DNA of 64,000 nt, taken from Candidatus Binatia bacterium (GTDB lineage: Bacteria > Desulfobacterota > Binatia > HRBIN30). Shown here piece after piece: positions 2,048-20,967 of the stretch (positions are counted from its first letter, which is position 1; the number at the start of each line of letters is the position of its first letter). The translations under genes and the position numbers were made by a program. The stretch covers positions 1 through 64,000 of the forward strand of contig JAOAHD010000010.1 in the NCBI GenBank assembly GCA_026415395.1. Direction: 5' to 3'. The notes beneath the pieces were generated by a model. That model was not told where the DNA came from and did not search any database. It was given only the letters and a program-made list of their open reading frames with translations.

Positions 2048-2063
2048 CCCAGATCTGCAAGCG

Positions 2064-2088
2064 CCAACGGTTGGTGGCAACGTTGCCA
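2064..2088 (+). promoter_or_regulatory. Copy 1 of the 25-bp CCAAC-N6-TGGCAAYGTTGCCA motif
   Basis: The right half (2075-2088, TGGCAACGTTGCCA) is a perfect 14-bp palindrome. The left part (CCAACGGTTGG, 2064-2074) is itself dyad-symmetric. The motif lies between two genes, 54 nt before the ATG of the TPR gene. The same layout recurs at 7852-7876 and 22505-22529. It may be an operator; that is inference. Confidence 0.6.
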
Positions 2089-2141
2089 ACTCCCCCACCC
2101 CTCTTTCCTCGGGTTTCCTTCCTCCAATAGGCTTCGTTGCC

Positions 2142-3365: not shown

Positions 3366-3401
3366 CAACAGCGGGCAAGCAAATTTGTTTTGGGGGCAAC
3401 A

Positions 3402-5141
3402 ATGGCAACGCGAGAGAGCAGTTCCTCTTCAGTCGCCTCAGGACATCTCGCACTCGCTGCGCGTGCAGCAGCGGAGGGCAATTATGCGCTCGTCAAAGAG
3501 CTCTACGCGGCTGCTGCAGCAGCGGGTGCGGTAGAGGGCGAGCGCGCGAAGTGGGCCTTGCTCCTGATCGAAGCGGGCGAACTCGAAGAGGGCTGGAGGC
3601 TCCAGGGCCAGCAGCCGGAAGGCATCCTGAGCCAAGAGAAGGGCTCGCAGCCGGAATCAGAGGACACGGGAGACGACTTTCTCACCTTCGAGGCCACTCC
3701 CCGCGTGGATCAGGGGAAGACACCATCCACGGACACTGCGTTGATTGAGCTCTTTCGACGTTGGTTCGCCGGCCGTGGCGATGTTTACGCGCGCCAATGG
3801 TACGACGCTCGCAACGATCGAACGGGCTATGTCCCTGTGCGAGAGCCGCTCGACGATCGCGTGATTGCCCAACACCTCGAAGGGCGCATCACCATTGGTC
3901 AGTACCTTCTATATCCAGACCACCACGTAAGTTTTGCCGTGATCGACCTTGACCCGACAAGTGCAGCCCTCGAGCAAGCACGCCTGGAACAAACGGATGA
4001 GCTTGGCGGCTTGGGCTTACCCGCACTGCGTGAGTACGCCAGTCGCATCGTCCGTACGGCGAGAGAGCTCGACGTGCCCACTTTGCTGGAGGACACGGGT
4101 GGGGCAGGGTTGCACATTTGGATCTTTTTTGCCCCGCGTGTTCCTGCCCGCCGTGCCCGTGCCTTCGTGCGCGAACTGCTCTGGCGCAGTGGGTCGCAAC
4201 CGGCGAGTGTCGTGGTGGAGATCTTCCCGAAGCAAGACGAACTTACCGGCAAGGGTCTCGGCAACCTCGTGAAGCTGCCGCTCGGGGTACATCAAGCAAC
4301 CCTTCGCCCCTCGCGCTTCTTGCAAGGTGAAAGTCTGGAACCCCTACCAGAGCTGTCTGCCCTGCGGAGCGTTTGCCCGGTGGATCCGGTGATCTTTGAC
4401 CGACTGCTGAACGACAGAGTGGTACCGCTGCGTCCCCTGCAAGCGCCAACTCCAACGCCGCAAGAGCCAAGTCTTCCGACGAGTCCCCTGGGTTCTCCCC
4501 GCGCGTTAGCCGAAGCCCTCGCGGCCATCGAGAGCCGGAAGCCCGTGGCGGAAGCCGTCGACCGCGTTTTGGAAAACTGCGCCGTGCTGAGAGAGCTCGC
4601 GCGGAGGGCGCTCGAAGGGGAGCCCCTACCTACGACGGGGTTGAGGTGCCTGCTCTACAGCATTGGCCTCATTGGCCGCGACAATCCCGTCATCGAGCAA
4701 ATTTTTGCGCGCACGGGTGCAAGCAGAAAGGAGCTAGAGCGGGTCCGCCGTGGCCTACAGTCGCCAGTGGGCTGCAGGCGCCTCAAGGAGTATTTTCCAC
4801 AACTTGCCGAGCGATGTAGCTGCCCTGAGGTACCGGAGGCCGGCTACGCCACTCCGGTGCTGTTTGCACTCTCGGGTTCGCCCCACTTCCACCGCCGCGA
4901 ACCTTTGTCTCCAGTAGCAGCCGATGAATGGCTGGGATCGGATTTCCCCGACACGGGGAGCTCGAAGGAGGAACTGCGCAAAATCATCGCCCGGTTGGAA
5001 GAGGTCGAAAAGATCCTGCGTGAACTTCTCGGGCGTCCGCCATCCAACCCATCTACTCCGGAGAGCTCCGCACCGCCTTGGGAGCCCGCCACCGAAGCTG
5101 CCGAAACCTCGCCTTCGGGTGGACGGTCTCCCAAGACCTGA
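3402..5141 (+). CDS. CRISPR-associated AEP primase-polymerase (CAPP/TOTE-type primase)
   Basis: The product is 579 residues. Residues about 14-75 form a TPR-like helical region. Residues about 115-300 form an archaeo-eukaryotic primase core: motif I FAVIDLDP (Asp182 and Asp184, metal ligands), motif II GGAGLHIW (His238), and VVEIFPKQDEL (Glu273) followed by GNLVKLPLG. The C-terminal helical part has Cys393, Cys416, Cys458, Cys472 and Cys474, resembling the Fe-S or zinc end of PriL-type primase domains. It matches the family called TOTE-type AEP or CRISPR-associated primase-polymerase, which makes primers and DNA and is linked to spacer acquisition. ATG 3402 follows a GGGGG stretch; an upstream TTG at 3390 is possible. 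It sits 87 nt before cas1, and no reverse transcriptase is present. Confidence 0.88.
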   Translation: MATRESSSSSVASGHLALAARAAAEGNYALVKELYAAAAAAGAVEGERAKWALLLIEAGELEEGWRLQGQQPEGILSQEKGSQPESEDTGDDFLTFEATPRVDQGKTPSTDTALIELFRRWFAGRGDVYARQWYDARNDRTGYVPVREPLDDRVIAQHLEGRITIGQYLLYPDHHVSFAVIDLDPTSAALEQARLEQTDELGGLGLPALREYASRIVRTARELDVPTLLEDTGGAGLHIWIFFAPRVPARRARAFVRELLWRSGSQPASVVVEIFPKQDELTGKGLGNLVKLPLGVHQATLRPSRFLQGESLEPLPELSALRSVCPVDPVIFDRLLNDRVVPLRPLQAPTPTPQEPSLPTSPLGSPRALAEALAAIESRKPVAEAVDRVLENCAVLRELARRALEGEPLPTTGLRCLLYSIGLIGRDNPVIEQIFARTGASRKELERVRRGLQSPVGCRRLKEYFPQLAERCSCPEVPEAGYATPVLFALSGSPHFHRREPLSPVAADEWLGSDFPDTGSSKEELRKIIARLEEVEKILRELLGRPPSNPSTPESSAPPWEPATEAAETSPSGGRSPKT

Positions 5142-6538: not shown

Positions 6539-6741
6539 ACTCACCCTCTGCCGAGGACACCGGTCAGAAGAGCAGTCCAGAGTCGCGGGCTGCACCTGGC
6601 CACACCAAAAGCCGAAGGGCACAACGACAGGCGGGTTGCTGAGCGCCCCTGCCAGGTCTCGCCCGCAGCACACAATGGTTTGGCAAATCTTGACAACGCA
6701 GCACCTTTCCACGTATGTGCCCGCCTCGAGTGGTGCAGACG

Positions 6742-7899
6742 ATGGGGTGGGAGAGGACGCTGCTGTTCGTTGCCGGATCGTCCCCGCAGGTGATCACCGA
6801 AACTGTGTGGGCTCTCTGCCGGCAACGGCCCGTGCCGCGCACGCAAGTGTTCGTCATTACCACCACTGCGGGGCGAGACCACATCGAACAACGACTACTG
6901 AGGAGGGGCGGTCCGTGGTCGAGGCTCCAACGCGACTACCCAGCCGCACGCAATTTCCACTTCAATCGCAAGCAGGTGCTCGTGCTGCCAGGGCCGGACC
7001 GGCAGCCGCTCGATGATGTTCGCAGCGAAGCCGACAGCAAGGCTGCCGGGGACTTCATTCTGGATTTCGTTCGCAACCACACAAGACCGGAGCACCCTCC
7101 CCTGCACGCTTCCATCGCGGGCGGGCGAAAAACGATGGGCTATCTGCTCGCCACCGCAATGGTTTTGTTTGGCCGCGTGGACGACCGCTTATCGCATGTG
7201 CTGGTGCGTCCCCCGGAGCTGGAGGGCAGTTCATTTTTCTACCCGCCACCACGGGGCCGCTTTGTGAAGGCCGAGACCCCGGCCGGCAAAACAATTGAGG
7301 TTCAGCTGAAAGACGTGTCGATCGATCTTGCCGAACTCCCCTTTTTGCGCTTGCGGCTTTGGCAAGATAGCCGCGACCTCGCCGCAAACAGTTTCTCTGA
7401 GCTTGTTCAGCGTTTGCAGCAGCGTTTGGGCCAGGTTGTGCGGCCTACTGTTGAAATCGATGTGGCGCTCTGCCGCTTGGTGTGTGGTGGTGAAGCCATC
7501 CACGTTTCTCCCCTGCGGGTAGGGATCTACGCGCTTCTTGCGCGGCGGCGGCAGAGCCATCTTCCCGGGAGCGTTTGCGCTGGTTGCTCTAGGTGCTTCC
7601 TGCCGGCTGAAGAAATCGGGCGGGGTTTCAGAGAAGAACTCCGCACGCTCATGCAACAGCTGAAGAGTGTGGCAGTTGGGAAAACGTGGTCAGAGCGCAA
7701 CTTCCGCCCGGAAATTTCCAAACTCAATGCGCTCCTCGAAGAAAAGCTGGGCAGTGCGAGCAAACCGTACGAAGTGCAAATCAGAGGAGAACGCGGCCAA
7801 CGTCTTTACGGTATCGCCGCGGCACCAGAACTCCTGATAGTCAGTGGCCTGCCAACCATTGGTGGCAATGTTGCCACGAGTGCCACAGCGGTTGCGTAA
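6742..7899 (+). CDS. NE0113-family CARF protein (Csm6-like / ring-nuclease family)
   Basis: The product is 385 residues from ATG 6742; ATG 6715 is an equally open alternative and neither has a clear ribosome site. Residues 6-24 (TLLFVAGSSPQVITETVWA) and AGGRKT (126-131) are the two ligand-loop signatures of the NE0113 CARF family. This family sits with type III systems and is often annotated as CRISPR-associated ring nuclease Csm6. It should bind, and perhaps cleave, cyclic oligoadenylate made by Cas10. The C-terminal half has a Cys cluster (CAGCSRC) and no HEPN motif that I can see. The last 40 bases of the gene contain copy 2 of the 25-bp motif. It has a degenerate paralogue at 842-2047. 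Confidence 0.85.
   Translation: MGWERTLLFVAGSSPQVITETVWALCRQRPVPRTQVFVITTTAGRDHIEQRLLRRGGPWSRLQRDYPAARNFHFNRKQVLVLPGPDRQPLDDVRSEADSKAAGDFILDFVRNHTRPEHPPLHASIAGGRKTMGYLLATAMVLFGRVDDRLSHVLVRPPELEGSSFFYPPPRGRFVKAETPAGKTIEVQLKDVSIDLAELPFLRLRLWQDSRDLAANSFSELVQRLQQRLGQVVRPTVEIDVALCRLVCGGEAIHVSPLRVGIYALLARRRQSHLPGSVCAGCSRCFLPAEEIGRGFREELRTLMQQLKSVAVGKTWSERNFRPEISKLNALLEEKLGSASKPYEVQIRGERGQRLYGIAAAPELLIVSGLPTIGGNVATSATAVA
7852..7876 (+). promoter_or_regulatory. Copy 2 of the 25-bp CCAAC-N6-TGGCAAYGTTGCCA motif
   Basis: CCAACCATTGG (7852-7862) is followed by TGGCAATGTTGCCA, whose T at 7863 is next to that run; the symmetric part is 7863-7876 with one central mismatch. It lies inside the 3' end of the NE0113 gene and 99 nt before the GTG of cas10. 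The 14-mer is identical to that at 22516-22529. Confidence 0.55.
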
Positions 7900-7974: not shown

Positions 7975-10900
7975 GTGACGAACGTCGATCGCTGGACTCT
8001 CAAGATTCACGCGTTTTTGCACGACCCACCCCATAAGCCACTTGCTTTGGGGCGGGGCCACGCGGCACAAGGAGCCAGCATCGCCGAGCGCATCACCGAA
8101 AAAGCACTCAGCAACGGCACTGCCAGCCTCATTGCGACAGCGGACCACCTGGCCGCAGGGGCTGACCGGCAGAGCTGGCTCGCGCAATTTCGCGTCGACC
8201 CGAAACAGCAACTGCAACTCATCCATCCGCTCGAAGGAAAGCCCATCTTGCAACCCGGAACGCGCAGGGGCCAAGCGTTCGAGCTGGTCTTTCCGACTGA
8301 GTGCGTCGATGCGGCCGAACGCATCGGCGCACAACTGCCAGGGGTGATCGGAGAGCTACCGAATAACCGCCTGCGCTTCCTAGTCTTGTGGCGTTTCCTG
8401 CCTGAGCTCCTCGCACGGATGGAAGGACGCCAGCGAAATCTAGGCTTGCTTTGGCCGCTCTTACCTGCCGATTCCCGCATGCCCGATCACTCGGTTCTCA
8501 TTCATGATTCCTTGGTTTCCGCCTTGGCGACGATTTTAGACCAAGGCACCAAAGCTGCCCTTCTCCGCGTACAGTTTGCACCCGTGCAGGACTTCATCGA
8601 AGCCTCGCGAAAACTTCGCGATCTCTGGGCTTCGTCGAGCATCCTGGCCGAAACCACTTGGTGCGCCATGGAAACAATCGTCGAGGAGTTTGGTCCGGAT
8701 CACGTGCTGTTCCCCAGCTTACGCGACGAGCCCCGTTTCGACCGCTGGTTACTTGGCCAACCACAGCTGCGGGAGTGCGCACCGGAGGATCCTGGCAAGC
8801 GGCAGCAGTCGCCGCTGTGGGCCGTGTTCGATGAGACCGAGCGCTATCTCCCCCGTGCGCTGCGTACGCCTTCGCTCCCGAACGTGTTCACCGCTGTCAT
8901 TCCCTACGAGCAGGCCGAAGAGATAGCCCGAAAGGTTGAGAAGAAAGTGCGTGCGTTTTGGGAAGACAGCGTTCGCCAAGCAGGGGACTGCGCAGGCGAA
9001 GGACAAGAGTACGGCGAACGGGCGCGCGAGCAAGCGCAAGCCTTGTTGCAAGTGTTCTGGAGCGTGGTGCCGTGGCCGCTCGACCAAAGTCCTCGAACTT
9101 GGGTCGCGTCAACCCATGAGACTTGCTGGCACAAGCGTACCCCGATTGTTTCTGAGGCGCTGGCAACCATCGACACCGTAGAGGAAGTGTTCTCCGGGTA
9201 CGAACCCAATGCTGGCCTCCTGTATCCGGACATAACCGACCAGGCCACGTTGCTGGTTGACGCGGTGAAACGTGAGCGGGCGCAGCACGTTAGCGACGAA
9301 GGTGGGCTCAAGTGTAGTTGCTGCGGCGAGCGGCAAGTGCTTGGCGGCAATGACTTTTGGATCCAACGGACCGAAGGGCTTGCCAAACGCAAGGACCGCA
9401 AGCGGCTCTCCGAAGGCGAACAGCTTTGCGGACCTTGCACATGGAAGCGCCTATTCGAACTGGAGGGTTTGCGCGAGGAGGATTCCGGCCCCTTCGGCCC
9501 TCGCCACCCCTCCACCGGAGATGTTGCCGCAGCCCAGTTCAAGCTGGACGTGATTCTGGCCTGCAGAGACGGCAACAAGAAGCTCCTAGAGAAGGTGAAA
9601 GCTTTCGTTGACGCGGTACAGGCTGATGTGAGCGAAGGAAGGCTAGATGAAGGGGATACCCGAGTGTTCTGCCCCCAGGCGGTGGATCTGGCAGCGCGGA
9701 AATCGGAGGAAAAGACACTGATTGAGTTTGCCCGAATCGACGGTCAGTGGCTGTTGGACTTCCCGCGCGAAGAGGCACCAGAGGCGAAGCCGGAGGAAAC
9801 GCTGCGCGCGGCGCGAGAGCTGCGGCGCGCGGCTGCTGACGCCAACATCGATGCGCCGCGCCCGTACTTGGCGGTGATCGATTTCGACGGCGACAGCATG
9901 GGGAAGTGGCTTTCGGGGACGCATGAACACTTCCCGAGAGTCTTACAGACTCTACACACGAAGGTCGTCGAGATGCTCAAGGCCGACCACCCCGCGGGCT
10001 GGCAAGCCCTCGCCGAACGCCCACGCTTCCTCAGCCCCGCCTTCCACGCGTCGTTGAGTGCAGCCGCTGCAACATTTGCTCGCGTGGCAGCACCGATGAC
10101 CATCGAAGGGGAGGCGCTACCGGGACACCTCATTTACGCTGGCGGCGACGATGCCTTGTTCCTGGCCCCCGTTCCAGTCGCCCTAGAGCTTGCTCTGCGG
10201 TTGCGCCTGCGTTTCTCCGGCTGGCCCAAGAAGTTCGAATCACTCCTTCTCAAAGCGGATGAGAGTAACTTTGCAGGGTTCCGCGAATTGCTTCGTAGCC
10301 ACTTCAATACGCCGAGCGCTTGGACCTTGGCGACGTTCGGTACGCAAAGTGGTCGCCCTGAGCCTGCCGACCAGTGGGAACAGGTGAGGAAAGTGGGCCT
10401 TGCCTTCGGCACGAACGCAACCGCATCCGCTGGGATGTGCGTGTTCCATTACCGCTGGCCCTTGGGTTCGGCGTTGCGAATGGCTCGGGAGGCCCTGAAT
10501 GCTGCCAAGCAGGTAGCGCGGAACTCGCTCGGGATCATCGTGCAGCGGCGTTCGGGTTCGATCAGTCGGACCGTCTTGCCCTTTTTCCTCAAAGACACAT
10601 CGGACCAAGCCTCCTCGCCAACAATCTTTCCGGTGCTGAGCCTCATCGAGGCAACCGCAGCGTTCATGAAGGAGGAACAAGGGGTGTCCGCGCGCCTTGC
10701 AACCGCGTTCCGAGAGGAGATCGCAGCCCTCCACATCGAACCGCGAGCGGGCAGACTGCCCGGAACAAAGCGCGCTGACAGCCAACTCTGGGACATTGGG
10801 GAAGCACTGGCACGGCGTGTGGTTCTCCGGCGAGACTTGGCTGGGAGCAAGCGGTCGGACGAGTCGAAAAAAGAAAATCCCGTGCGCGATTACCTCGAGC

Positions 10901-11028
10901 GAGTGGTCCTCGACCTCGGCCGCGGTGTACGGGCAACCTGTAAGGACAACCCAGTGCAGGCTCTGTTCGAATGGAGCGAAGCGTTAACTGTGGCAGCATT
11001 TTTGGCACGACCTGGGGAGCGGGGGTGA
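7975..11028 (+). CDS. cmr2: Cas10/Cmr2, signalling subunit of the type III-B complex
   Basis: The product is 1017 residues, from GTG 7975 behind AAGGAGAAAC. The N-terminus has the Cmr2 opening KIHAFLHDPPHK (His16-Asp17) and TADHLAAGADR (56-65), an HD-like region. RVQFAPVQDFIEASRKLRDLW (about 198-218) is typical of Cmr2. Cys447, Cys449/450, Cys485 and Cys488 form a probable zinc site. The cyclase palm carries IDFDGDSMG (635-643) and AGGDD (722-726), so cyclic-oligoadenylate synthesis should be intact. Target RNA binding by the Cmr complex would switch on this activity and thereby the CARF proteins encoded nearby. It is separated from cmr3 by 3 nt, so the cmr genes form a tight operon. Confidence 0.96.
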   Translation: MTNVDRWTLKIHAFLHDPPHKPLALGRGHAAQGASIAERITEKALSNGTASLIATADHLAAGADRQSWLAQFRVDPKQQLQLIHPLEGKPILQPGTRRGQAFELVFPTECVDAAERIGAQLPGVIGELPNNRLRFLVLWRFLPELLARMEGRQRNLGLLWPLLPADSRMPDHSVLIHDSLVSALATILDQGTKAALLRVQFAPVQDFIEASRKLRDLWASSSILAETTWCAMETIVEEFGPDHVLFPSLRDEPRFDRWLLGQPQLRECAPEDPGKRQQSPLWAVFDETERYLPRALRTPSLPNVFTAVIPYEQAEEIARKVEKKVRAFWEDSVRQAGDCAGEGQEYGERAREQAQALLQVFWSVVPWPLDQSPRTWVASTHETCWHKRTPIVSEALATIDTVEEVFSGYEPNAGLLYPDITDQATLLVDAVKRERAQHVSDEGGLKCSCCGERQVLGGNDFWIQRTEGLAKRKDRKRLSEGEQLCGPCTWKRLFELEGLREEDSGPFGPRHPSTGDVAAAQFKLDVILACRDGNKKLLEKVKAFVDAVQADVSEGRLDEGDTRVFCPQAVDLAARKSEEKTLIEFARIDGQWLLDFPREEAPEAKPEETLRAARELRRAAADANIDAPRPYLAVIDFDGDSMGKWLSGTHEHFPRVLQTLHTKVVEMLKADHPAGWQALAERPRFLSPAFHASLSAAAATFARVAAPMTIEGEALPGHLIYAGGDDALFLAPVPVALELALRLRLRFSGWPKKFESLLLKADESNFAGFRELLRSHFNTPSAWTLATFGTQSGRPEPADQWEQVRKVGLAFGTNATASAGMCVFHYRWPLGSALRMAREALNAAKQVARNSLGIIVQRRSGSISRTVLPFFLKDTSDQASSPTIFPVLSLIEATAAFMKEEQGVSARLATAFREEIAALHIEPRAGRLPGTKRADSQLWDIGEALARRVVLRRDLAGSKRSDESKKENPVRDYLERVVLDLGRGVRATCKDNPVQALFEWSEALTVAAFLARPGERG

Positions 11029-11031
11029 GGC

Positions 11032-12186
11032 ATGGACATTCTGGAATTGGAACCGCTGGATGTGTTTTCCATCCGCTCGGCGCGCCCGTTCGATGTCGGC
11101 GGCGTCGTGCATGCGGATTTCGTGTGGCCGCCACCAGCTTGGACTGTAGTCGGCGCGCTCCGCGGCGTGCTCGCGGAACTCCTCGGCCTCCCCGCGGTGG
11201 AGTATGGCCGAGCTGGGTCAAACCATCCGCGGTTCGCCAACGTGGTCGACCGCATCGGCAAGCCCGATGGCCCTGCCAAGTTTGTCATCGGCCCTGCACT
11301 CGTGTTGGATGTCGAAACGCAGAGCCTGCGATGGCCTGTACCGGCAGATGTCTTCGCCGTGCGGGAAGGCACCCTCAAACTGCGGCGTCTCCGTGCCACG
11401 CTCCTGCCGCGCGAATGCCAGTGCAATTTCAAGCAGGGACGCACGTGCGTGCTCGCTCCGCCTTCGGATCTCTCAGCGCACCCGGAAAAATCTCTTCCCC
11501 TCCGAGCCTTCGACTCAGGTTTGCTCTTGGAGTGGCTATCCGGCAAGGAGACGTTGGAGCTCGGAGCCCGCAGCGCACAAGACTCCAGTCCAGATTTTTT
11601 CACCGAGCCGCGCATCGGGATCTGCATGGACTCGACAGCGAACACAGTACGGGAAGGCCTGTTCTATATGCGTAGCGCCGTGCAGCTTGCTCTCGGGCGC
11701 AGCCTCGCGGTTCCATTGCTCGATCGAGGCGACGGCCTGCCTTGGGAGGCCCTGCAGGGCCAAGTTGCGCGCTTCGGGGCCGACGGGCACTTGGTACGCC
11801 TTCGGCCGCCGCGCCCGTTCAACCTTCCGCCGGCGCCGGGAGATCGGCCGCTCAAGCGCGCGCGCATCCTTTGTGCTGCACCGATCCACCCAGGAGACTT
11901 GGACAACATCGAGGTGGAGGGCCATCAGGTCCGCGTTCTCGCGGTCGCGGCAGGGAAGCCGGTACGCATTGGCGGCTGGCGGCTGCTGACTGTGCGGCGC
12001 AACGGAGCGGAAGTCGAGCAAGGCCCCCGCACTTTGCGAACGTACTATCCGGCGGGAACGGTGCTGTACGTCGAGTCGGACGGCGATTTGAGAAAGCTCC
12101 ACGGGCAAAACCTCGCCCAATGCGAGGAAGAACGGGCTGCAGGGTTTGGATTCGCACTCGTAGGGCAGTGGCCAGAGCAAGTTTAG
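11032..12186 (+). CDS. cmr3: Cmr3 (Cas5-group RAMP of type III-B)
   Basis: The product is 384 residues. The N-terminal LEPLDVFSIRSARPFDVGG matches the Cmr3 signature in which a D/R-x-R-PF segment follows the first beta strand, and PPAWTVVGALRG is the usual next helix. Cmr3 binds the 5' handle of the crRNA and contacts Cas10. It starts 3 nt after the cas10 stop and ends 14 nt before cmr4. Assignment rests on this signature plus gene order; overall length is normal for the family. Confidence 0.92.
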   Translation: MDILELEPLDVFSIRSARPFDVGGVVHADFVWPPPAWTVVGALRGVLAELLGLPAVEYGRAGSNHPRFANVVDRIGKPDGPAKFVIGPALVLDVETQSLRWPVPADVFAVREGTLKLRRLRATLLPRECQCNFKQGRTCVLAPPSDLSAHPEKSLPLRAFDSGLLLEWLSGKETLELGARSAQDSSPDFFTEPRIGICMDSTANTVREGLFYMRSAVQLALGRSLAVPLLDRGDGLPWEALQGQVARFGADGHLVRLRPPRPFNLPPAPGDRPLKRARILCAAPIHPGDLDNIEVEGHQVRVLAVAAGKPVRIGGWRLLTVRRNGAEVEQGPRTLRTYYPAGTVLYVESDGDLRKLHGQNLAQCEEERAAGFGFALVGQWPEQV

Positions 12187-12200
12187 GAGGAGGTCATTTC

Positions 12201-13157
12201 ATGGCAGAGCAACGGATGTTCGATACACGGCTCCTCGTGATGCTAGCGGAAACACCGGTGCACGCTGGCACGGGCGCAGAGCTTGGGGCGGTCGACCTAC
12301 CGATTCAAAGGGAACGTCACACACGGTTTCCCACCATCCATGGGTCGGGAGTAAAAGGCGTGTTGCGCGACCTTTCGGAGCGGGTAAACGGCAATGGCAA
12401 AGAATCGGTAACGACCGTGCTCTTTGGAAGCCCCCCGCCAAAAGCTGCCGGCGGAGAGGGCCTCGAGGCTGGATCCTTAGTGGTCGCCGATGCTCGCTTG
12501 CTCTTGCTACCGGTGCGCAGTGTTGGGCATGCATTCGCGTGGGTTACGTGCCCCTATTTGCTGAGCCGCTTCTTGCGCGACGCTGGCGATTGCCAACCGG
12601 ACAAACGCGGCGACATTGAGGCCGCAATCAAGGCAAGCACGATTCCAAGCACGGACAAGGGAGTGGTGCACACTGCATTTCCACTTTCCGCGGCGATGAT
12701 CGAGGAACTCGAGCTACCCGTGGAGAAGAAAGACCTAAATAAGCTCATTGGCCTGCTGCAGCAAATGCTGCCCGGTGGGGCGGAAATGCAGTACTGGCGG
12801 GATTTGTTGCCGAAGAACTTGCTCATCGTTCCGGACGACGTGTTTTCGGACCTCGCCTTGCACGGCACCGAGGTAGTCACGCGCGTGCGCCTCAGCGACG
12901 AGAAGACCGTCGAGAAAGGAGCGCTGTGGACAGAGGAATACCTGCCGGCGGACTCCCTCCTCTACAGCGTGCTGGGGCTGGAAAGCCGCCGCCTCGCCAC
13001 GAAGTGGGCCAAGAAGGGCCAACCCACGGGGCCCGCCGATGGTTGGAAGTGGGTGGCCGACCTCGTGCAAAAGAACCCCGTGGCTCAGTTTGGCGGAAAG
13101 GAAACGGTGGGGCGTGGCTTCTTCCGTCTCCAACTTTGGCCAGCGGCGGCCAACTAA
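12201..13157 (+). CDS. cmr4: Cmr4 (Cas7-group backbone RNase subunit)
   Basis: The product is 318 residues. ATG 12201 follows AGGAGGAGGTC, a strong ribosome site; the longer open frame from 11742 is a shadow over cmr3. The N-terminus TPVHAGTGAELGAVDLPIQ followed by RERHTRFP is the Cmr4 signature. Asp32 in VDLPIQRE is the expected catalytic residue that cuts target RNA at 6-nt steps. GSGVKGVLRD supplies the RAMP basic loop, and the C-terminal GGKETVGRGFF gives the glycine-rich loop. Several copies of Cmr4 form the filament on the crRNA. Confidence 0.96.
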   Translation: MAEQRMFDTRLLVMLAETPVHAGTGAELGAVDLPIQRERHTRFPTIHGSGVKGVLRDLSERVNGNGKESVTTVLFGSPPPKAAGGEGLEAGSLVVADARLLLLPVRSVGHAFAWVTCPYLLSRFLRDAGDCQPDKRGDIEAAIKASTIPSTDKGVVHTAFPLSAAMIEELELPVEKKDLNKLIGLLQQMLPGGAEMQYWRDLLPKNLLIVPDDVFSDLALHGTEVVTRVRLSDEKTVEKGALWTEEYLPADSLLYSVLGLESRRLATKWAKKGQPTGPADGWKWVADLVQKNPVAQFGGKETVGRGFFRLQLWPAAAN

Positions 13158-13172
13158 TCAGGAGGGCCCATC

Positions 13173-13529
13173 ATGCCGGAGAAAGCAAAACACATCGAGC
13201 AGGAACGGGCTCAGTGGGCACTTGAGACGGTGCGCGAGCTCCAGAAGCAAGTAGGCAAAAAGGACGAGTTGCTCAGCCACATCCGCAAGCTGCCCTCGCA
13301 CATCCAGACGTCGGGGCTTGCGCAAACGTTATTGTTTTATGGCCAAAAACAGCCGGCCATTGCCGAGGCGCTCGTCCGGCACCTGCAACTGGACGCCAAC
13401 GGCAACGCGGATATCGCCCACGCGGTCAGTGAGCTTGTGCGAAGCGCAGCCAGAGTGCGCCAGAAGACACGCGATGCACTCAACGCGGCGCAGTGGCTCA
13501 AGCGCTTTGCGGAAGTGGAACTGAAATAA
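13173..13529 (+). CDS. cmr5: Cmr5 small subunit of type III-B
   Basis: The product is 118 residues and all-helical. It opens with a run of helices (IEQERAQWALETVRELQKQ) and contains LPSHIQTSGLAQTLLFYGQK, the most typical Cmr5 stretch, in which the protein stacks along the inner filament next to Cmr4. ATG 13173 follows GGAGGGCCC. It sits between cmr4 and cmr6 as in other Cmr operons. It has no enzymatic motif and is expected to be structural. Confidence 0.94.
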   Translation: MPEKAKHIEQERAQWALETVRELQKQVGKKDELLSHIRKLPSHIQTSGLAQTLLFYGQKQPAIAEALVRHLQLDANGNADIAHAVSELVRSAARVRQKTRDALNAAQWLKRFAEVELK

Positions 13530-13597
13530 GTGCAACGGGACTAAGGCGTCATGATTCGCCGGTTACTGAGTTTGTCTTCCACGCAAGGAGAGGATTA

Positions 13598-14869
13598 ATG
13601 CCAAACGGTACACGCGGAGGTGCGCAAAGGCCTGCGGGGCGGGGTGCCGCGGCTGGCGGAGGCCACACAGGCGGCCCTGGCCGGGGACAAGGCGGGGGAA
13701 GACATCATGGCGGCGGCGCGGGTGGTGGCCAGGGCGACGGCTTCGAGGTGGCAACCCTCCCCCAAAGCACGCAGGAACTCGTCGAGCACGCACGTCGTGA
13801 GAAGTTCGTAGTTCACCCTGCCCTCGAGCTCTCGAAGTTTGTGGAATGGCAGCAAACACAGCGCAAATTGGAACCGAATCGGCGGCGTGCCTACGGTTAC
13901 GTTATTGACTGCTTGAAGGGGTCGGCAACACTGGCACAAAGTTGGCGTCGTCGGCGCAAGGCTTGGCTTGAGGCTTTGGGTAAGCGGGCGCGGGTCATCG
14001 AGGTCGAGGCGCTATCCCCATGCGTCCTCTGGTTGGCTGCACCAACTCCGCTCGAGTTGGGGTTTTGTTTGCACCACACTTACGGCTTGCCGTATCTCCC
14101 CGGCTCTGCACTGAAAGGCTTGGCGCGCAAGGCCATGCTCCGGGAGGAACTGGGCGTTCCTGTCGTGGTCCCCGATGACGAGCCAGAAAAGAAGGGGGCA
14201 AGCACAACGGACAAGGTGGACGAACTGTTCGGCGCGGGCGGACACGACGGACGAGTCGGGAAGGTAGATTTCCTGGATGGCATTCCGCTGGATGCAAGCT
14301 GCCTGGAACTAGAGGTCATGAGTCCGCACCACCCTAAGTACTACCAAGGAGAGTCGAAAGTTCCGCACGATTGCGAGGACCCCATCCCCCTGCCTTTCCT
14401 ACGGATCAAGCCGACGAGCAGGTTCGAGATTGCGCTCTTTGCCCGCACCGATACGGAGGTTGAGAAGTATCTCGACCAAGCAGAGCGTTACCTCCTGCGC
14501 GGCCTCGAAGAGCTTGGCGTGGGAGCCAAAACATCTTCCGGCTATGGCCTCTTCAAACTCGCACTGGCTAGTCCCGCCAAAGAGCATGCGCGCCCCTCTG
14601 CGAGTGACGAAACGACCGCGGGCGAGCCGGCGCGGGTTGTCGAGCGAAGAACCATCGCCGGGGCAACAATCGACAGCTTCGATATCGCCAAGGATTTAGT
14701 CGTGTTCACTGACGAACAGGGAAATCTTTTCCATGCCTCCATCAAAGAATGCGAACAGCGATTTGGCTTTAACCGCTCCGGTCTAAACCAGCTGCGTACC
14801 AGGAAGGTGCGCTTCGAGATCCACGTCGAGGGTACGACGGTCGTCGCCGCGTACAAAAAAAGGGAGTGA
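13598..14869 (+). CDS. cmr6: Cmr6 with Gly-rich N-terminus and C-terminal extension
   Basis: The product is 423 residues, longer than a usual Cmr6. ATG 13598 follows AAGGAGAGGATTA. Residues about 1-48 are an extreme Gly/Arg/His-rich tail. The RAMP core is shown by LPYLPGSALKGLARK (a Cmr6 signature) and by VGAKTSSGYGLFKL near residue 315. About 95 further residues follow, including a linker and a segment DLVVFTDEQGNLFHASI that looks like a small beta-barrel. Cmr6 caps the target-3' side of the filament with Cmr1. The extension could bind RNA, but that is inference. The gene follows cmr5 by 68 nt and precedes cmr1 by 4 nt. Confidence 0.92.
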   Translation: MPNGTRGGAQRPAGRGAAAGGGHTGGPGRGQGGGRHHGGGAGGGQGDGFEVATLPQSTQELVEHARREKFVVHPALELSKFVEWQQTQRKLEPNRRRAYGYVIDCLKGSATLAQSWRRRRKAWLEALGKRARVIEVEALSPCVLWLAAPTPLELGFCLHHTYGLPYLPGSALKGLARKAMLREELGVPVVVPDDEPEKKGASTTDKVDELFGAGGHDGRVGKVDFLDGIPLDASCLELEVMSPHHPKYYQGESKVPHDCEDPIPLPFLRIKPTSRFEIALFARTDTEVEKYLDQAERYLLRGLEELGVGAKTSSGYGLFKLALASPAKEHARPSASDETTAGEPARVVERRTIAGATIDSFDIAKDLVVFTDEQGNLFHASIKECEQRFGFNRSGLNQLRTRKVRFEIHVEGTTVVAAYKKRE

Positions 14870-14873
14870 CGCG

Positions 14874-15935
14874 ATGAAGAGCCAAGAAACACTAGAGGCA
14901 CAACTTCGCATCGTCACACCAGTGTTCTGTGCTGGCGCGGAGCAGAACGGTGCGTCCGAAATCCGCCCCTTCAGTATTCGCGGGGCGCTGCGCTGGTGGT
15001 ATCGGGCAGTTGCGGGAGATTCCCTTAAGGAAGAGGCTTCTGTATTCGGCGCTACGACCGGCAACGGCACGGCCTCTCCGATCGCTCTGCAACTCGGGTC
15101 CTGGCTTTCCGAAGAAACTCCTCTGGACGACCGATTGCAACCAAAAAGGGCACCGGAGTCAGGGGCAGCGTACCTGGGCTACACCTTGTACCTCGGCAGC
15201 AACAACAGAAAGGCGGTGACTCCGGGTAAAGAGCCAGTCACCCTCCGACTCCGGTGGAATTGGAAGCCCGCGTCAAGTGAGAGGCAGCAATACATCCGGA
15301 GGGCCTGGGCTGCGTCGTTGTGGCTTTTCGGTCACCTGGGCGGCTTGGGCACTCGGGCACGTCGCGGCTTCGGCACCCTCGCGTTGGAAAATTGGACCGG
15401 CTGGGAGGAGGAAACGGGTCTACTCGGCACCGCACACGGGGCCGCGTCGCCAGAGCAATGGAAGGAGCGCTTCGACAGCGGATTCCAAAAGATTGGTCAA
15501 TGGTTTCCGGCACCGACCGGCGCTTTGCATCAGCACGTGAGCCAGAACCTGCAAGTGTATCTGTGGAGAACGGGCAAGCGGAGCTGGGATCAGGCTCTCG
15601 ACGAAATCGGGAAGGTTTTCCAAGACTTTCGGAGAAGACCGGAAATTCATCGGCCGGAGCTTCTTGCCGCCTTTGGGTTGCCCATTCGTTTCCGCCGCCA
15701 CCCTGCCCGGTTCGCGCGGCCGGAGAAGTTCAATCGCGCGGCCTCGCCGTTGCAAATTCGGGTGGTTCCAATCGGGAGCAACTACCACCCGATGGTCTGG
15801 CGCGCGGCAGGCCCACTCGTGCCAAAGCAAGAGCTCCGGCTGTCGTACTCAGGCCATTACTCGGACCAGCCGCCGAGAGAGTGGGATCGCGCCCTTGAGC
15901 AGTTCCTCGACCACATCCGACCGCACTGCGTCTGA
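14874..15935 (+). CDS. cmr1: Cmr1 (Cas7-group RAMP, filament cap)
   Basis: The product is 353 residues. The N-terminal pattern LRIVTPVFCAGAEQNG followed by EIRPFSIRGALRWWYRAVAG is the strongest known Cmr1 signature (RPxSIRGxLRWWWR in the family). GGLGTRARRGFGTL gives the RAMP glycine-rich loop near residue 160. Cmr1 sits at the end of the Cmr filament and binds the 3' end of the crRNA. It starts 4 nt after cmr6, and its stop codon TGA overlaps the ATG of cas6, so the two are translationally coupled. Confidence 0.95.
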   Translation: MKSQETLEAQLRIVTPVFCAGAEQNGASEIRPFSIRGALRWWYRAVAGDSLKEEASVFGATTGNGTASPIALQLGSWLSEETPLDDRLQPKRAPESGAAYLGYTLYLGSNNRKAVTPGKEPVTLRLRWNWKPASSERQQYIRRAWAASLWLFGHLGGLGTRARRGFGTLALENWTGWEEETGLLGTAHGAASPEQWKERFDSGFQKIGQWFPAPTGALHQHVSQNLQVYLWRTGKRSWDQALDEIGKVFQDFRRRPEIHRPELLAAFGLPIRFRRHPARFARPEKFNRAASPLQIRVVPIGSNYHPMVWRAAGPLVPKQELRLSYSGHYSDQPPREWDRALEQFLDHIRPHCV

Positions 15936-16867
15936 TGACCGAACTCCCGCGCCTGCACGTTTGGCTCGTCCACTACGAAGTCACCCGTGCAGGGGTTTTG
16001 CCGCCACTGCCAACAACCGCACTGCACGGCGCTCTTGCGCGGACTTTGTACGACGACGTTTGCGTTGCTCCGGCGCGCCTCCACTGCGACGGCTGTCCAG
16101 CGCAGCTTTCGTGTGCATATCCGACCCTCTTCGAGCCGACCGCCAGCAATGGCGCACGAGCGCGGCCTTTCGGCGTCACCACGGAGCCGCCGAGGCCCTT
16201 AGCGATCGCACCAGACAAACCGTTTCTTCCCACAAGCGAACGCCCCTTCGCCGTCAAGAGGGGCGACATCCTCACCTTCCGGATCGTCGCTACAGGCTGC
16301 GTGTGGCAATACTGGAAGGCGCTCCGCAAAGCCTTGCAACGTGTCGGCCACCGTGGTCTCGGGCCCCATGGCTCGCGAGCGACCTTGGAGTTGGCGGAAG
16401 TGGTCGAGTTGACCAAACTGCTGCCGACGGAGCCGGTGCAGGAGGTCACGCTGAGCTTTGTTACTCCGCTGCGCATCAAACATCAGGGACGGATTGCCTC
16501 GCAGCTCGATCCGTCCATGCTTTTCGAAGCCATCGTCCGGCGGGCGCGTTTGCTGTCGCTATTCGAAGCCCAGCCTTGGGAGCCGCCAGCCGAGTGGCAG
16601 CAGCTCGCCGGTTCCTTGCACTCGGTTGCCGACCTGCGTTTAGTGCGGGTCGGCCGTTACTCCGGCCGGCAAGGGCGGTGGATGTTATGGCCCGGATTGG
16701 TCGGGACGATGCGACTCAGCGGCGATGCTGTAAATGAGCTGCTTCCCTTGTTGCACTTCGGTTCACTGGCACAAATTGGCAAAGCATCCACGTTCGGCTT
16801 CGGACGCTACGATCTCGGCCAACTGCGGTACTCCCGTACGGGAGCTGACGCCGGCGGGGTGGCCTAA
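15935..16867 (+). CDS. cas6: Cas6 pre-crRNA endoribonuclease
   Basis: The product is 310 residues. Cas6 cuts within the repeat to give crRNAs with an 8-nt 5' handle. The C-terminal IGKASTFGFGRYDL is the glycine-rich RNA-binding loop of the Cas6 C-terminal family. An earlier CDGCPAQLSCAYPTLFEP shows the Cys-containing segment common in this bacterial subgroup. A catalytic His is not certain from inspection; His21 and several others are candidates. Its start overlaps the stop of cmr1 by one base. The repeat hairpin CCCC-GAGA-GGGG just before TTTGAGAC is the expected cleavage site. Confidence 0.92.
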   Translation: MTELPRLHVWLVHYEVTRAGVLPPLPTTALHGALARTLYDDVCVAPARLHCDGCPAQLSCAYPTLFEPTASNGARARPFGVTTEPPRPLAIAPDKPFLPTSERPFAVKRGDILTFRIVATGCVWQYWKALRKALQRVGHRGLGPHGSRATLELAEVVELTKLLPTEPVQEVTLSFVTPLRIKHQGRIASQLDPSMLFEAIVRRARLLSLFEAQPWEPPAEWQQLAGSLHSVADLRLVRVGRYSGRQGRWMLWPGLVGTMRLSGDAVNELLPLLHFGSLAQIGKASTFGFGRYDLGQLRYSRTGADAGGVA

Positions 16868-16878
16868 GACAGCAGAGT

Positions 16879-18609
16879 ATGGGAAAGACGATCCTCCTCA
16901 GTGCGCTCGGCAAAGGGAATTATTCTAAGCGCGACTACGAATACCACGACCGGACATACACTACCTCCTACGCACCTGTGGCAACGGCAGCCTTGGCTTT
17001 CGAGCCAGAAGAGAGGGCCGACTTGTCCGTGCGCCTGCTCAGTACAACCGAAGCAAAGGAAAAGCACTTCGGCGGCATTCAACAGGCTTTCCGCGACTTA
17101 AACATCGAAGACGTGGAATTTCGGGAAGTTCCGGAAGGAGCTGACCTCCAGGGCACCTCAACCATCTTACGAACCCTCGTCGATGTTGTTCCACCCGATG
17201 AAACGGCGAGCGTGGCGGCGGATGTGAGCCTCGGCTTTCGCCATCTCCCTCTGCTTTATGTTGCGGCTTTGGCGTACTTGGTTGGACTCACTGGCATACG
17301 CGTCCGCGGAATTTACTACGGCGCCGCGGACCTAGTCCCGCCGCCAGAAGCCTGCCCCATTCTCGACCTGACTCGGGTTTTCGAGTTCCTCCAGTGGTAC
17401 CAGGCGCTGGCAGCACTCAGCGAGACTGGCCGGGCACAAGGGCTGGCTAAAGTTCTGCGCCATCACGTGCGCAACTTGTTCGTTTCGTCTCCCGGGACGC
17501 CGACCCCTTCCCGCACGCTATCTTCACTGCGCGACGCGGCGGAATCCTTGGCAACTCCTCTTGCCTGCGGGCTTCCGCTCGAGTCCGGCATGGCCGCGAC
17601 GAAGCTGCTGGCTCTTCTCGGTCGAGCTGCGCAGGAAGCCCCCGATGAGGGGTTGTTTGCCGGCCAGAAGTTAGCCGGAATTGTGCAAAGTTGGGCGCTC
17701 GATGCCGCTGTGGAGAACAAGCGCAACGTGGCGCTCACAGAGGGAGAATTGCGCCGGCAGTGGGCGTTTATCCGCTGGTGCTTTGAGCACAACGACTTTG
17801 CCAACTGCTTCGAGGCCTTGCGCGAGTGGGTCGTGAACCTTGTACTGTGGCGACAAGGTAGAACCGCGAATTGGCTCGACTACGACTCGCAGCGCAAGCC
17901 AGCGGAACGGCTTCTCAACGCGCTGAGCTACCGCGTCCGGAACAACTTTGGGCAGTGCACTGCGACTCAAAGGGCGTTGGCCAGCACTTGGGACAAGATT
18001 TCGGAAAAGCGCAATTTACTCGCCCATGCGGGGATGAAGGCAACGGAAGTCAAAGTGGCTCCACAGCCGGTGGCGGCTCTACTTCAGGAAGCCGAAGAGC
18101 TTCTCACGAGTGTCACCGAAATGGATGTTCGACTTGTCGGCACACGGACTGTACTCGTGGCTGCCTTGGGGCGATCGCCGGGAGCCTTGTTTACCGCGCT
18201 TCACCATGTGCGGCCACAAATGCTCATCGTGTTGACCTCTCAGGAGAGTGTCGCACGGCTGGAGGCAACCTTAGCTGCTGCAGACGCAACAACGATCGAG
18301 ACCCTACCCGTTGTTTTGGAAGATCCTTACCGCGCATTTCGCCAAGCCGAACGTGTGATCGAGCAGTGCCGCCCTTCCCTCCTTGTCGCCAGCAGGCTGG
18401 TGGTCAATCTCACCGGCGGTACGACCGCCATGCAGTACCTCGCCGAGCGGGTTGCAGACGAGGCAAAACGGCTAGGAACACCGGTGCAACGGGTTGCCGT
18501 GTTAGATGAACGGCCGCAAGCAGCGCAGCAGGCGGATCCTTTCCAACTCGGTGCCATCGAATGGATCGATGGACCTCCAGAGTCACACGGTTCCAACTCC
18601 TCGGCGTGA
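16879..18609 (+). CDS. CARF-HEPN-CARF protein (Csx1/TM1812-like RNase with a second CARF domain)
   Basis: The product is 576 residues. Residues 1-165 form a TM1812/Csx1-like CARF domain: KTILLSALGKGNY at the start and ADVSLGFRHLP at 114-124, the position of DxTHGFR in the family. Residues about 175-410 are helical and carry the HEPN RNase motif R378-N-L-L-A-H383 in EKRNLLAHAG. Residues about 418-563 form a second Rossmann/CARF unit: TVLVAALGRSPGALFTAL (424-441) and VVNLTGGTTAM (508-518), the phosphate-loop pattern of Card1/Can1-type CARF domains. It should be an RNase switched on by cyclic oligoadenylate, with two ligand sites per chain. It ends the cas operon, 5 bp from a convergent gene. 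Confidence 0.85.
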   Translation: MGKTILLSALGKGNYSKRDYEYHDRTYTTSYAPVATAALAFEPEERADLSVRLLSTTEAKEKHFGGIQQAFRDLNIEDVEFREVPEGADLQGTSTILRTLVDVVPPDETASVAADVSLGFRHLPLLYVAALAYLVGLTGIRVRGIYYGAADLVPPPEACPILDLTRVFEFLQWYQALAALSETGRAQGLAKVLRHHVRNLFVSSPGTPTPSRTLSSLRDAAESLATPLACGLPLESGMAATKLLALLGRAAQEAPDEGLFAGQKLAGIVQSWALDAAVENKRNVALTEGELRRQWAFIRWCFEHNDFANCFEALREWVVNLVLWRQGRTANWLDYDSQRKPAERLLNALSYRVRNNFGQCTATQRALASTWDKISEKRNLLAHAGMKATEVKVAPQPVAALLQEAEELLTSVTEMDVRLVGTRTVLVAALGRSPGALFTALHHVRPQMLIVLTSQESVARLEATLAAADATTIETLPVVLEDPYRAFRQAERVIEQCRPSLLVASRLVVNLTGGTTAMQYLAERVADEAKRLGTPVQRVAVLDERPQAAQQADPFQLGAIEWIDGPPESHGSNSSA

Positions 18610-18614
18610 GCGAA

Positions 18615-19904
18615 CTACCGGAACTTTTGACCCAATTGGATCGCAACTTGCCGATGGATGAAGACGCCCGTGCGCTCCGGCCAGTCAGGGCCGGAAGCCC
18701 CAAAGCCCAGGAGCACTGTCAGCGTGTTGGCCGGCGGAGGCAGTTCAGGCCAGGGAGTTTCGCCGTCGGTAAACACGACGATGTTATCGCATCTCTCTTT
18801 CACTGCAGCATCGAAGGCGACCCGCAAATCCGTGCCGCCACCTCCCCGCAAAAACTCCCCCAAGCGACGCACGTCGACACGCTGGCTCGTGTGCACGTCG
18901 GCGTCGCACGCGATGAGATGCACTTCTCTCGTGCCCAGCGAATGGAGGGAGCGGAGCACCAACGCCTGGGCTTCGTTCACGGCGATACCGAGGAGTTCAT
19001 CGGTCATGGATCCCGAGGTGTCGATGATCACCGCAGTCTTCGGTCGTGGCGCCACCCAGCCAGGCCTTAGAATGCCCGGAGCCGGCCGGCGCGATAAGCG
19101 GCGGAACGAACGCCGTGCCCGACCATGCGCAAGCTGCATCCCGTAACGGAAAAAACTGAACACGATGAGCAATGGGTCCAGCGTCGCCGGACAGAGAATT
19201 TTCGCCGCCCAGCGGCGCGCTCCCTTCGGGATCGTACCCCTGCCTCCGGAGTCAAGAATCCTACTCGCTGTAATCTTCCGTATTTGCTCGCGTTCGTGCT
19301 CGGGAAACGCGTCGATGTCGTCGCCGTCCAAAAGGTCCCGCTTCAGGGAAACGCGGAAGGGCAGTCTAACGCGCTGGGCCGAGCCGTCTTCAAAGCGGAT
19401 TCGCAGAACGTGCACGCTGTCGCGATCGGGTTCTCCGCGGAGCAGCTGCGCCAGGTACTCCTCGAGGATCAAGCCGCGCGGCAACGAGAAGAACAACGAA
19501 GGACGAATCGCTTGCCGCGGTAAATCAAAGGATTCTTCCTCAATATCATCGGCAATCTCCAAGTCGGCAGCAATATTTGCCAAGAGCAGGCTGTGTTCGT
19601 CGATCACGATGCCCCGACCGACGAGCGCCGCGACCATCCGCTCGTGGTGGCGCCGAAGTGGATGCAAAATTTCGTGGTAGAGGAGCCCCGCAAGTACAGC
19701 TTCGCTTTGCTGAAGCACGAACCGGGGAGAAAATTCCAACGCCCAATCGCGCCGTACACCGAGCGTGGCCACGCGGTCCGAAGGCACGAAGCGTAAGGCG
19801 AAGGCCGCGTGTGCATAATATGGAAGGCGACTCACGAGTAGGGCGCGCGCGTTGTGGAGCGCACGCAGCGCCGCTTGGACCGTCTTTTCGTCAGACCCCG
19901 GCAC
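18615..19904 (-). CDS. DUF2201-type zincin-like / VWA-domain protein
   Basis: The product is 429 residues from GTG 19904 behind GAGGG. The N-terminal half has a zinc-peptidase-like motif HEILH (77-81) followed by a helical region, typical of the DUF2201 N-terminal domain. The C-terminal half is a VWA fold with a MIDAS DTSGS (295-299) and a later TDGE. Such proteins pair with MoxR ATPases, which remodel or activate targets. Its start overlaps the end of the AAA gene by 14 bp, so the two are translationally coupled. It is convergent with the CRISPR operon, 5 bp away. Whether the metallopeptidase is active is unknown. Confidence 0.85.
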   Translation of the reverse strand: MPGSDEKTVQAALRALHNARALLVSRLPYYAHAAFALRFVPSDRVATLGVRRDWALEFSPRFVLQQSEAVLAGLLYHEILHPLRRHHERMVAALVGRGIVIDEHSLLLANIAADLEIADDIEEESFDLPRQAIRPSLFFSLPRGLILEEYLAQLLRGEPDRDSVHVLRIRFEDGSAQRVRLPFRVSLKRDLLDGDDIDAFPEHEREQIRKITASRILDSGGRGTIPKGARRWAAKILCPATLDPLLIVFSFFRYGMQLAHGRARRSFRRLSRRPAPGILRPGWVAPRPKTAVIIDTSGSMTDELLGIAVNEAQALVLRSLHSLGTREVHLIACDADVHTSQRVDVRRLGEFLRGGGGTDLRVAFDAAVKERCDNIVVFTDGETPWPELPPPANTLTVLLGFGASGPDWPERTGVFIHRQVAIQLGQKFR

Positions 19905-20967
19905 GTTGCGCCCTCAGCAGCGGCTCGAGATACCGGGTGCCGTATCTCGGGTAGTCCCACTCCTCTTGCCTACATTCGCATAGGGTCAGCACCGCAGGTA
20001 CGAGTACGTCGAGCGTCGAGTTTTTCGCCAGGTAATCGATCGCTTCCCAGCAGGCCAGCCACGCGCCGTAATCTTTGCGTGACGAAGCAAGCACTGCTGC
20101 ACCGAGGATGGCGGCGAACTTAAGATCGCCGCGCTTCGGAATCGGCCACTTGCGCGGAGCAGCGAGGATCTCTGCCGGGGACGGCAACTCGCGCGCGTTG
20201 CTCCACCACGAACCGTACTCGCTCGCAGCGCCTTCGCCGACCAGAGTGGCGTATGCCTCCACAATTTCATCCCGCTTCGGGTTGGAGCCCAGGCTCGCGG
20301 CGAGGCGCGACCCGTAATCCCAAGTGCGCGGCGTGGGAAAGGGGCCCGACTGCGCCACCTCATCTCTCGGAATTTGCACTAGCAAGTTCGGTCGCCACTG
20401 GCCGATGAAAGTCGCCACACGCGCCCGCTCTTCCCCCCACGCCAGTTCGTCGAGGTTGCCAATCTTTGGTGGGTTGCCCCAATACGAAGCGAACCCCTTT
20501 GCCCATTCCTCCGGCGGGACGGGAAATTCCACGTGTGCAAGACGCGACGAGGTCGGAGCCCTAAGGTATGTGCCGTTCACCGCATCCTCGGGTCGGTTGG
20601 AAGCACAGACGCGCCACACGTTCGGCGAAATTCGCCGGCCGCCTACGAGCCCGGAGTCGAGGAACCGTAGAATCCCGGCTTGGGCATCTTCGTAAAGGGT
20701 GCTCAGTTCGTCAATGAAGACGATGCCCTCTTTTAAGCTGGCCGCTTCGATAAAGTCGTTCACGGGCATCGTGCGCACGCCATCAGCCGAGGGGACGGGA
20801 ACCGCGAAATCTTCCGCCGTCCGAACCGTTGGGATGATGAGTTTGAGCCCCAGCCGCCTAGCAAAGGCCTCGATGGTGGAGGTTTTCCCGACGCCGGGTG
20901 GCCCCCACAAAATCGTCGGAATCCGCGCCGTGTAATACCGCTGCAAAATTTCATCGATTTGAGCCAT
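19891..20967 (-). CDS. MoxR-type AAA ATPase
   Basis: The product is 358 residues. Walker A is GPPGVGKT (22-29), Walker B is GIVFIDELST (81-90, Asp86-Glu87), and sensor 1 is CASNRPED (Asn124). This order and a helical C-terminus fit MoxR/RavA-type ATPases, which act as hexameric remodelling machines with a VWA partner. ATG 20967 follows GGGAGTAATTC. It is the middle gene of a three-gene operon, 24 nt after the basic protein and overlapping the VWA gene. Confidence 0.92.
   Translation of the reverse strand: MAQIDEILQRYYTARIPTILWGPPGVGKTSTIEAFARRLGLKLIIPTVRTAEDFAVPVPSADGVRTMPVNDFIEAASLKEGIVFIDELSTLYEDAQAGILRFLDSGLVGGRRISPNVWRVCASNRPEDAVNGTYLRAPTSSRLAHVEFPVPPEEWAKGFASYWGNPPKIGNLDELAWGEERARVATFIGQWRPNLLVQIPRDEVAQSGPFPTPRTWDYGSRLAASLGSNPKRDEIVEAYATLVGEGAASEYGSWWSNARELPSPAEILAAPRKWPIPKRGDLKFAAILGAAVLASSRKDYGAWLACWEAIDYLAKNSTLDVLVPAVLTLCECRQEEWDYPRYGTRYLEPLLRAQRAGV

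Follow-up and report, generated by a model that had tools for sequence, protein, structure and literature searches.

A Csx1-type CARF-HEPN-CARF protein closing a type III-B operon of Candidatus Binatia, and a possible attenuating role for its C-terminal CARF domain

Csm6 and Csx1 are described as acting in homodimers whose HEPN site is composite, and Csx1 usually has one CARF domain per chain, as the earlier note on this DNA also held (PMC9704534). Two described effectors have two effector domains in each chain (PMC6981274, PMC11229360): Can1, a monomer with the order CARF, nuclease-like, CARF, PD-D/ExK, and Csm6-2, a CARF-HEPN-CARF-HEPN fused dimer. In the Csx1-Crn2 fusion the C-terminal slot is occupied by Crn2 (PMC7293037), and Crn2, Crn3/Csx3, Csx16 and Csx20 are given as tested ring nucleases in PMC12409355. 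Among CARF domains themselves, two motifs, GTS as found in Sso2081 (motif I) and G-R-K (motif II), are reported to divide those that cleave from those that do not, and Can2 and Card1, which have no GTS, to be without cleavage (PMC10018336). The layout CARF-HEPN-CARF is already catalogued, as the named PADLOC class CARF2--CARF_HEPN_CARF, to which the protein described here adds one member. We take this class to derive from the census of CARF proteins published by Makarova et al. in 2020. A literature search found no experimental work on the class or on the role of its second CARF, and the sole paper found for the string CARF-HEPN-CARF uses it, where it occurs, for Csm6-2 (PMC11229360). Since the layout is already catalogued, the value of the analysis lies in the function of the second CARF more than in having come upon one more such protein.

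The gene lies in a window of 64,000 nucleotides, the whole stretch of DNA analysed, which forms the start of contig C10 of genome G000; the close kin of this genome include Bacterium HR30 and a Candidatus Binatia MAG. A type III-B (Cmr) operon is closed at its 3' end by an ORF of 576 aa with an ATG start (16879..18609, +), separated from the stop of cas6 by 11 bases. The cas10/cmr2 gene of the operon (7975..11028, +; TIGR02577, E 5.8e-58) has an intact cyclase motif, with GGDD at residue 723 and HD at residue 16, and its product is the expected source of the messenger. It is followed by cmr3, cmr4, a cmr5-sized ORF, cmr6, cmr1 and cas6 (11032..16867, +), assigned by NCBIfam, PADLOC and Pfam matches, the cmr5 label of ORF 13173-13529 being given by position and size. 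At the contig edge, a truncated CRISPR array end (1-171) holds three repeats spaced by 70 and 73 bases. Upstream of cas10, TPR, PrimPol and cas1 genes are bracketed by two CARF5/NE0113 genes, at 329-2047 (+; partial CARF5--CARF match, E 6.8e-20) and 6715-7899 (+; full-length CARF5--CARF match, E 5.3e-84); ahead of cas1, the first CARF5 gene is followed by the TPR-repeat gene (1683-3365, +) and the CRISPR-associated PrimPol gene (3390-5141, +; NF040561, E 2.2e-66). Directly downstream of the CARF-HEPN-CARF gene, and convergent to it, are genes for a VWA/DUF2201 protein and an AAA ATPase (18615-20967, -).

The chain consists, in order, of a CARF (residues 1-166), a helical region, a HEPN domain with R378-x4-H383 and a second CARF (421-567), an order identical to that of the PADLOC class, whose profile PDLC01839 is matched over its whole length (E 1.2e-97, residues 6-559 against positions 3-513 of 518). 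In the predicted models a CARF fold stands at both ends, as the class has it (full-chain AlphaFold2 model on alignment A2, described below: pLDDT 88.1, pTM 0.78). A recent internal duplication of one CARF is contradicted by the likeness between the two ends, which is only remote (hhalign probability 91%, 9% identity), and by their clades, the N end being CARF2 and the C end giving weak PADLOC matches to CARF1, CARF4, CARF8 and Can1. The protein resembles Can1 in having two different CARFs in one chain and a GTT loop in the second, but its sole effector is one HEPN domain, which lies between the CARFs, and the chain stops 9 residues after the second CARF. Similarly, Csm6-2 has CARF and HEPN units strung in a single chain, whereas the window protein has no second HEPN, its CARFs are not recent duplicates, and it comprises 576 aa against about 795 aa given for Csm6-2 (PMC11229360).

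The N-terminal CARF (16879..17376, +) is of the CARF2/TM1812 type, in agreement with the TM1812/Csx1-like domain claimed previously, as judged from TIGR02221 (E 8.6e-17, below the curated cut-off) and the PADLOC CARF2 models, and is presumed to be the trigger site. Residues D115, R121 and Y147 are invariant in all 26 homologues; at position 118, where 18/26 have His, the window protein has Leu, and this His aligns with H129 of Csx1-Crn2, a residue mutated in PMC7293037. The following region (residues 167-284; 17377..17730, +) is helical in the model, as is the HEPN ribonuclease domain (residues 285-415; 17731..18123, +). Model residues 2-417 match Csx1-Crn2 8y7g_B (Z 17.9, rmsd 4.2, 393 residues; VIA-align) and residues 165-417 match the CARF-truncated Csx1-Crn2 8y7f (Z 15.4), together with a weak match to Pfam Csx1_HEPN at 375-393 (E 0.2). 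The catalytic motif R378-N-x3-H383 (18010..18027, +), correctly located in the earlier note, reads RNLLAH, with R and H present in 26/26 homologues and N379 in 25/26. The N-terminal CARF, helical/HTH region and HEPN domain with RxxxxH that define Csx1 are thus all present. Csx1-Crn2 of Marinitoga (8y6z, 8y7g) has this same module plus a C-terminal messenger-binding domain; there the addition is a DUF1874/Crn2 domain, whereas in the window protein it is a Can2-like CARF.

A scan of genome contigs yielded 32 loci, 25 of them with an unbroken full-length ORF, using patterns built on the motifs of HEPN and of the C-terminal CARF and hence with a bias toward genes having these. Recurrence of the three-part chain in 25 further full-length ORFs indicates that it is not a chance read-through. 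Alignment A2 comprises the window protein and these 25, all 26 of which match the PADLOC class profiles (PDLC01838-01840). Seven loci were left out: in L026 the frame enters cmr1 once past a broken C-terminal CARF, the frames of L034 and L036 are broken, the ORFs of L035 and L037 have no C-terminal CARF, L038 is a stand-alone CARF (used only in the C-terminal alignment A3 of 27 rows) and L039 is a 57-aa fragment. The single frame of L026 (135-3035, +), running from CARF-HEPN through the broken C-terminal CARF into a Cmr1-like part, is probably a frameshift and not a true fusion. The full-length homologues, all with three parts kept, span bacteria and one archaeon, the carriers being MAGs or isolates of Chloroflexi, Planctomycetota, Gemmatimonadota, Gammaproteobacteria, Myxococcales, Anoxybacillus, Methanothrix and others. 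Within the window's class, a five-protein profile matches 9 of 148 genomes, 6 with a C-terminal CARF and the others with a plain CARF-HEPN gene (G097), a short fragment (G114) and Csx20 in the C-terminal slot (G126). Across the phylum, the C-terminal profile matches 12 of 395 genomes, with CARF-HEPN-CARF genes in two (G000 and G061) and weak matches in frames of 391-447 aa in the other ten.

A Cas10 or Cmr gene was detected at 18 of the 25 loci (tblastn, with the window Cas proteins as queries), and a cmr1 match begins at most 30 bases from the stop of the gene at 13; Cas10 is present in 24/26 carrier genomes, those of L009 and L014 being the exceptions. Within A2 the C-terminal CARF is the best-conserved part, at 40% mean pairwise identity and 10 invariant columns, ahead of the N-terminal CARF (35%, 6 columns) and HEPN (33%, 4 columns), and the helical region is the least conserved (28%, no invariant column). 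Distances among the 26 proteins are correlated between the three domains (Spearman 0.60-0.72; top permuted value 0.38), as expected for an old fusion that, judging from these sequences, would have been inherited as a unit. A viral origin of the C-terminal CARF finds no support, as a scan of viral contigs turned up no relative among its 31 pattern matches, and a Foldseek search against viral models gave nothing at E < 0.001.

The C-terminal CARF (residues 421-567; 18139..18579, +) is presumed to be a second cyclic-oligoadenylate site. Its sequence matches are weak (TIGR02710, E 0.0052; Csa3, E 0.013), and its separate AlphaFold model (alignment A3; pLDDT 93.5, pTM 0.87) is best matched by Can2 8q3z_A (Z 15.9, rmsd 2.4, 132 residues), the same residues in the full-chain model giving Z 15.8 (VIA-align). 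The second CARF-like unit proposed from the letters is therefore borne out by the predicted fold, and the comparison with Can1 and Card1 suggested at that time yields a CARF of the Can2/Card1/Can1 sort. Of the 50 structural matches listed (Z 9.6-15.9), drawn from Foldseek's own top 1000, 49 bear names of CRISPR-associated or CARF proteins, the remaining one being VC1899. We take VC1899 to be a Can2-like CARF protein. The pocket loop VVNLTGGTTAM, exactly where the earlier note had placed it (residues 508-518; 18400..18432, +), aligns with GGTK in Card1 and, in the second CARF of Can1, with NSGTT. G431, G435, S454, T512, G513, G514, T515, D543 and Q550 are invariant in 26/26 homologues, and D482, N510, T516, R545 and P554 are found in 25/26.

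Neither of the known cleavage motifs was found in this domain. Crn1 motif I (G-T-S, residues 431-433) is present in 0/26, G431 being invariant and 432 and 433 variable, and motif II (G-R-K, or lysine as in Can2/Card1) in none, with T in 25/26 and A in 1/26 at the position of T516, which aligns with Lys102 of Card1 and T384 of Can1 (HMMER). The Crn1-type CARF ring nucleases Sso2081 and Sis0455 share the CARF fold (Z about 12) but have GTS motif I and R/K motif II, whereas the window C-terminal CARF has neither. N380 and T384 of Can1, which align with T512 and T516 here, contact cA4, and PMC6981274 reports that no ring nuclease activity was seen for Can1. The site thus looks fit for cA4 binding, without known means of cutting. 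The domain also belongs to none of the tested ring nuclease families (Crn2, Csx3, Csx16 or Csx20): the best PADLOC class is that ending in _CARF, and the CSX20, CSX16 and CSX3 fusion profiles match only up to residues 465, 479 and 415, with much lower scores.

Neighbouring genes point to cA4 as the likely messenger. A CARF-RelE gene lies beside the homologue at L014 and L032, a Can2-like gene at L020 and L027, and Csx3 also at L020 (the one locus with Csx3); in a bulk scan of 140 neighbouring ORFs, Cmr5, Cas2, Cas4 and Can2-like genes are among the first 25 of 268 families. CARF-RelE and Can2 are cA4 effectors and Csx3 a cA4 ring nuclease according to the papers cited for them, and mixing of messengers within a locus is described as seldom (PMC11229360); cA4 is therefore the likely ligand by analogy, and such loci favour a single messenger over the two different ligands that the earlier note also considered. 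At L014 (11728-15092, +), CARF-RelE and CARF5-adenosine deaminase genes (E 6.7e-209) adjoin the CARF-HEPN-CARF gene, making three different CARF effectors in succession. The presence of one HEPN per chain, given that the HEPN site of Csm6/Csx1 is composite, suggests a Csx1-like homodimer.

From the observed domain order, residues, operon and recurrence, and from the predicted folds, we infer a dimeric protein, cA4 as its ligand, RNase activity and attenuation: a cA4-triggered homodimeric Csx1-type RNase that would have its own attenuator in the C-terminal CARF, a reading that we hold to be the likeliest, at about even odds. Once the complex meets target RNA, Cas10 would make cyclic oligoadenylate, most likely cA4; binding of this messenger across the paired N-terminal CARFs would, judging from fold and motif, switch on the composite HEPN RNase. 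The two C-terminal CARFs would pair separately, forming a second site for the same messenger, and this site would dampen the response through slow cleavage or sequestration of the messenger, in the manner of Crn2 within the Csx1-Crn2 fusion and of the non-enzymatic Csx15 proteins in trans.

An attenuating role is suggested because relatives hold ring nucleases in the same slot. Besides Csx1-Crn2, PADLOC has CARF2--CARF_HEPN_CSX3, _CSX16 and _CSX20 models, and in G126 (L047), of the window's class, Csx20 occupies residues 407-520 after the CARF-HEPN part (E 1.7e-28). The high conservation of the C-terminal CARF relative to the other domains also counts in favour of this role. In six-frame searches of the 26 carrier genomes, Csx3 was found in 1/26 and Crn2 (control match in B. 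subtilis), Csx20 (control matches in G126 and M. jannaschii), Csx15 (control match in G552) and Csx16 (searched without a positive control) in 0/26; all five are thus absent from 25/26, a weak absence as the genomes are drafts. The genomes were searched in six frames as a simple ORF caller can miss small genes under long antisense ORFs. A known ring nuclease is reported at 34% of Csx1 loci (PMC12409355), a loose comparison as that figure comes from complete genomes and another family set. Crn1 homologues probably do not supply a missing off-switch, as TIGR02619 matches in 7/26 carrier genomes only frames of 365-602 aa, two of them the CARF-RelE genes of L014 and L032, and no small stand-alone Crn1 was seen in the 26 by this search.

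A stand-alone homologue of the C-terminal CARF (L038:9998-10432, +; 144 aa, 36% identity in A3, same pocket) is encoded in an Abditibacterium MAG, between an intein-bearing rtcB-like gene on one side and clpC-like genes on the other, all named by eye. It is unlinked to the type III-B locus of that genome, where Cas10 is on another contig and a Csx1 gene without a C-terminal CARF is followed directly by Csx15. Such a copy in a Cas10-bearing genome is as expected for a separable attenuator, though its place outside the CRISPR locus counts against this. With Csx15 there is an earlier example of a response being limited by sequestration of the messenger, which is left uncut (PMC13148439). Catalysis is argued against by the absence of both Crn1 motifs and by the modelled likeness to Can2, Card1 and the second CARF of Can1, which bind cA4 without cutting it; like the last of these, the C-terminal CARF may trap cA4 and not cut it. 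If cleavage does occur, invariant D543 and Q550 and near-invariant R545 are perhaps candidates. We therefore tentatively put forward a new type of attenuator, either a cA4 trap or a ring nuclease without GTS and R/K motifs, in a widespread Csx1 class and also occurring alone. It need not be the only off-switch: at the Methanothrix locus Csx3 lies beside the gene, and in the window both CARF5 genes match the NCBI model TIGR02584, named ring nuclease Csm6, so a separate off-switch may exist anyway, and the Csx1 part may itself have ring nuclease activity.

Alternatively, the C-terminal CARF may be a second sensor, with RNase activity requiring messenger in both CARF dimers, which would make an AND gate or raise the threshold, or with the two CARFs reading different ring sizes. 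Its nearly invariant pocket resembles binding, non-cleaving CARFs (Can2 at Z 15.9 and the second CARF of Can1), T512 and T516 correspond to the cA4-contacting N380 and T384 of Can1 (PMC6981274), and the two CARFs belong to different clades and are only remotely alike. We consider this rather unlikely in view of the tested ring nucleases in the same slot of relatives and of plain CARF-HEPN relatives that have no second CARF (L006, L035, L037), whose existence implies that the RNase can in principle do without one.

It is also conceivable, though improbable, that the C-terminal CARF has lost ligand binding and serves as a dimerisation or scaffold domain, as the missing ring-nuclease motifs might indicate. 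The polar residues at its strand ends (S454, T512, T515, D543 and Q550 in 26/26; D482, N510, T516 and R545 in 25/26) speak against this, being a pattern of conservation that the fold alone explains poorly. The monomer raised in the earlier note would, on the model of Can1, have its own N- and C-terminal CARFs pair round one messenger molecule. This reading has in its favour the presence of two CARFs in the chain and the likeness of the C-terminal pocket to that of the second CARF of Can1, but it is very improbable given one HEPN per chain where the HEPN site is composite, an N-terminal stretch of 417 residues that matches a Csx1 subunit, and the failure of the modelled CARFs to fit the Can1 pair on superposition (6sce_A; rmsd 33.9 over 228 residues, for a monomer model).

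Type III effectors harm their own cell, and the way in which the alarm is shut off decides between recovery and death. In the present class two different messenger-binding domains are joined to one RNase. Should the C-terminal CARF prove to be a second sensor, the protein would represent an AND gate within a bacterial immune pathway. If instead it is a built-in attenuator, as we propose, the trigger and the off-switch would be two unlike CARFs of one chain, and the motif rule used for predicting ring nucleases would fail to pick out this domain, as it has none of the known catalytic motifs.
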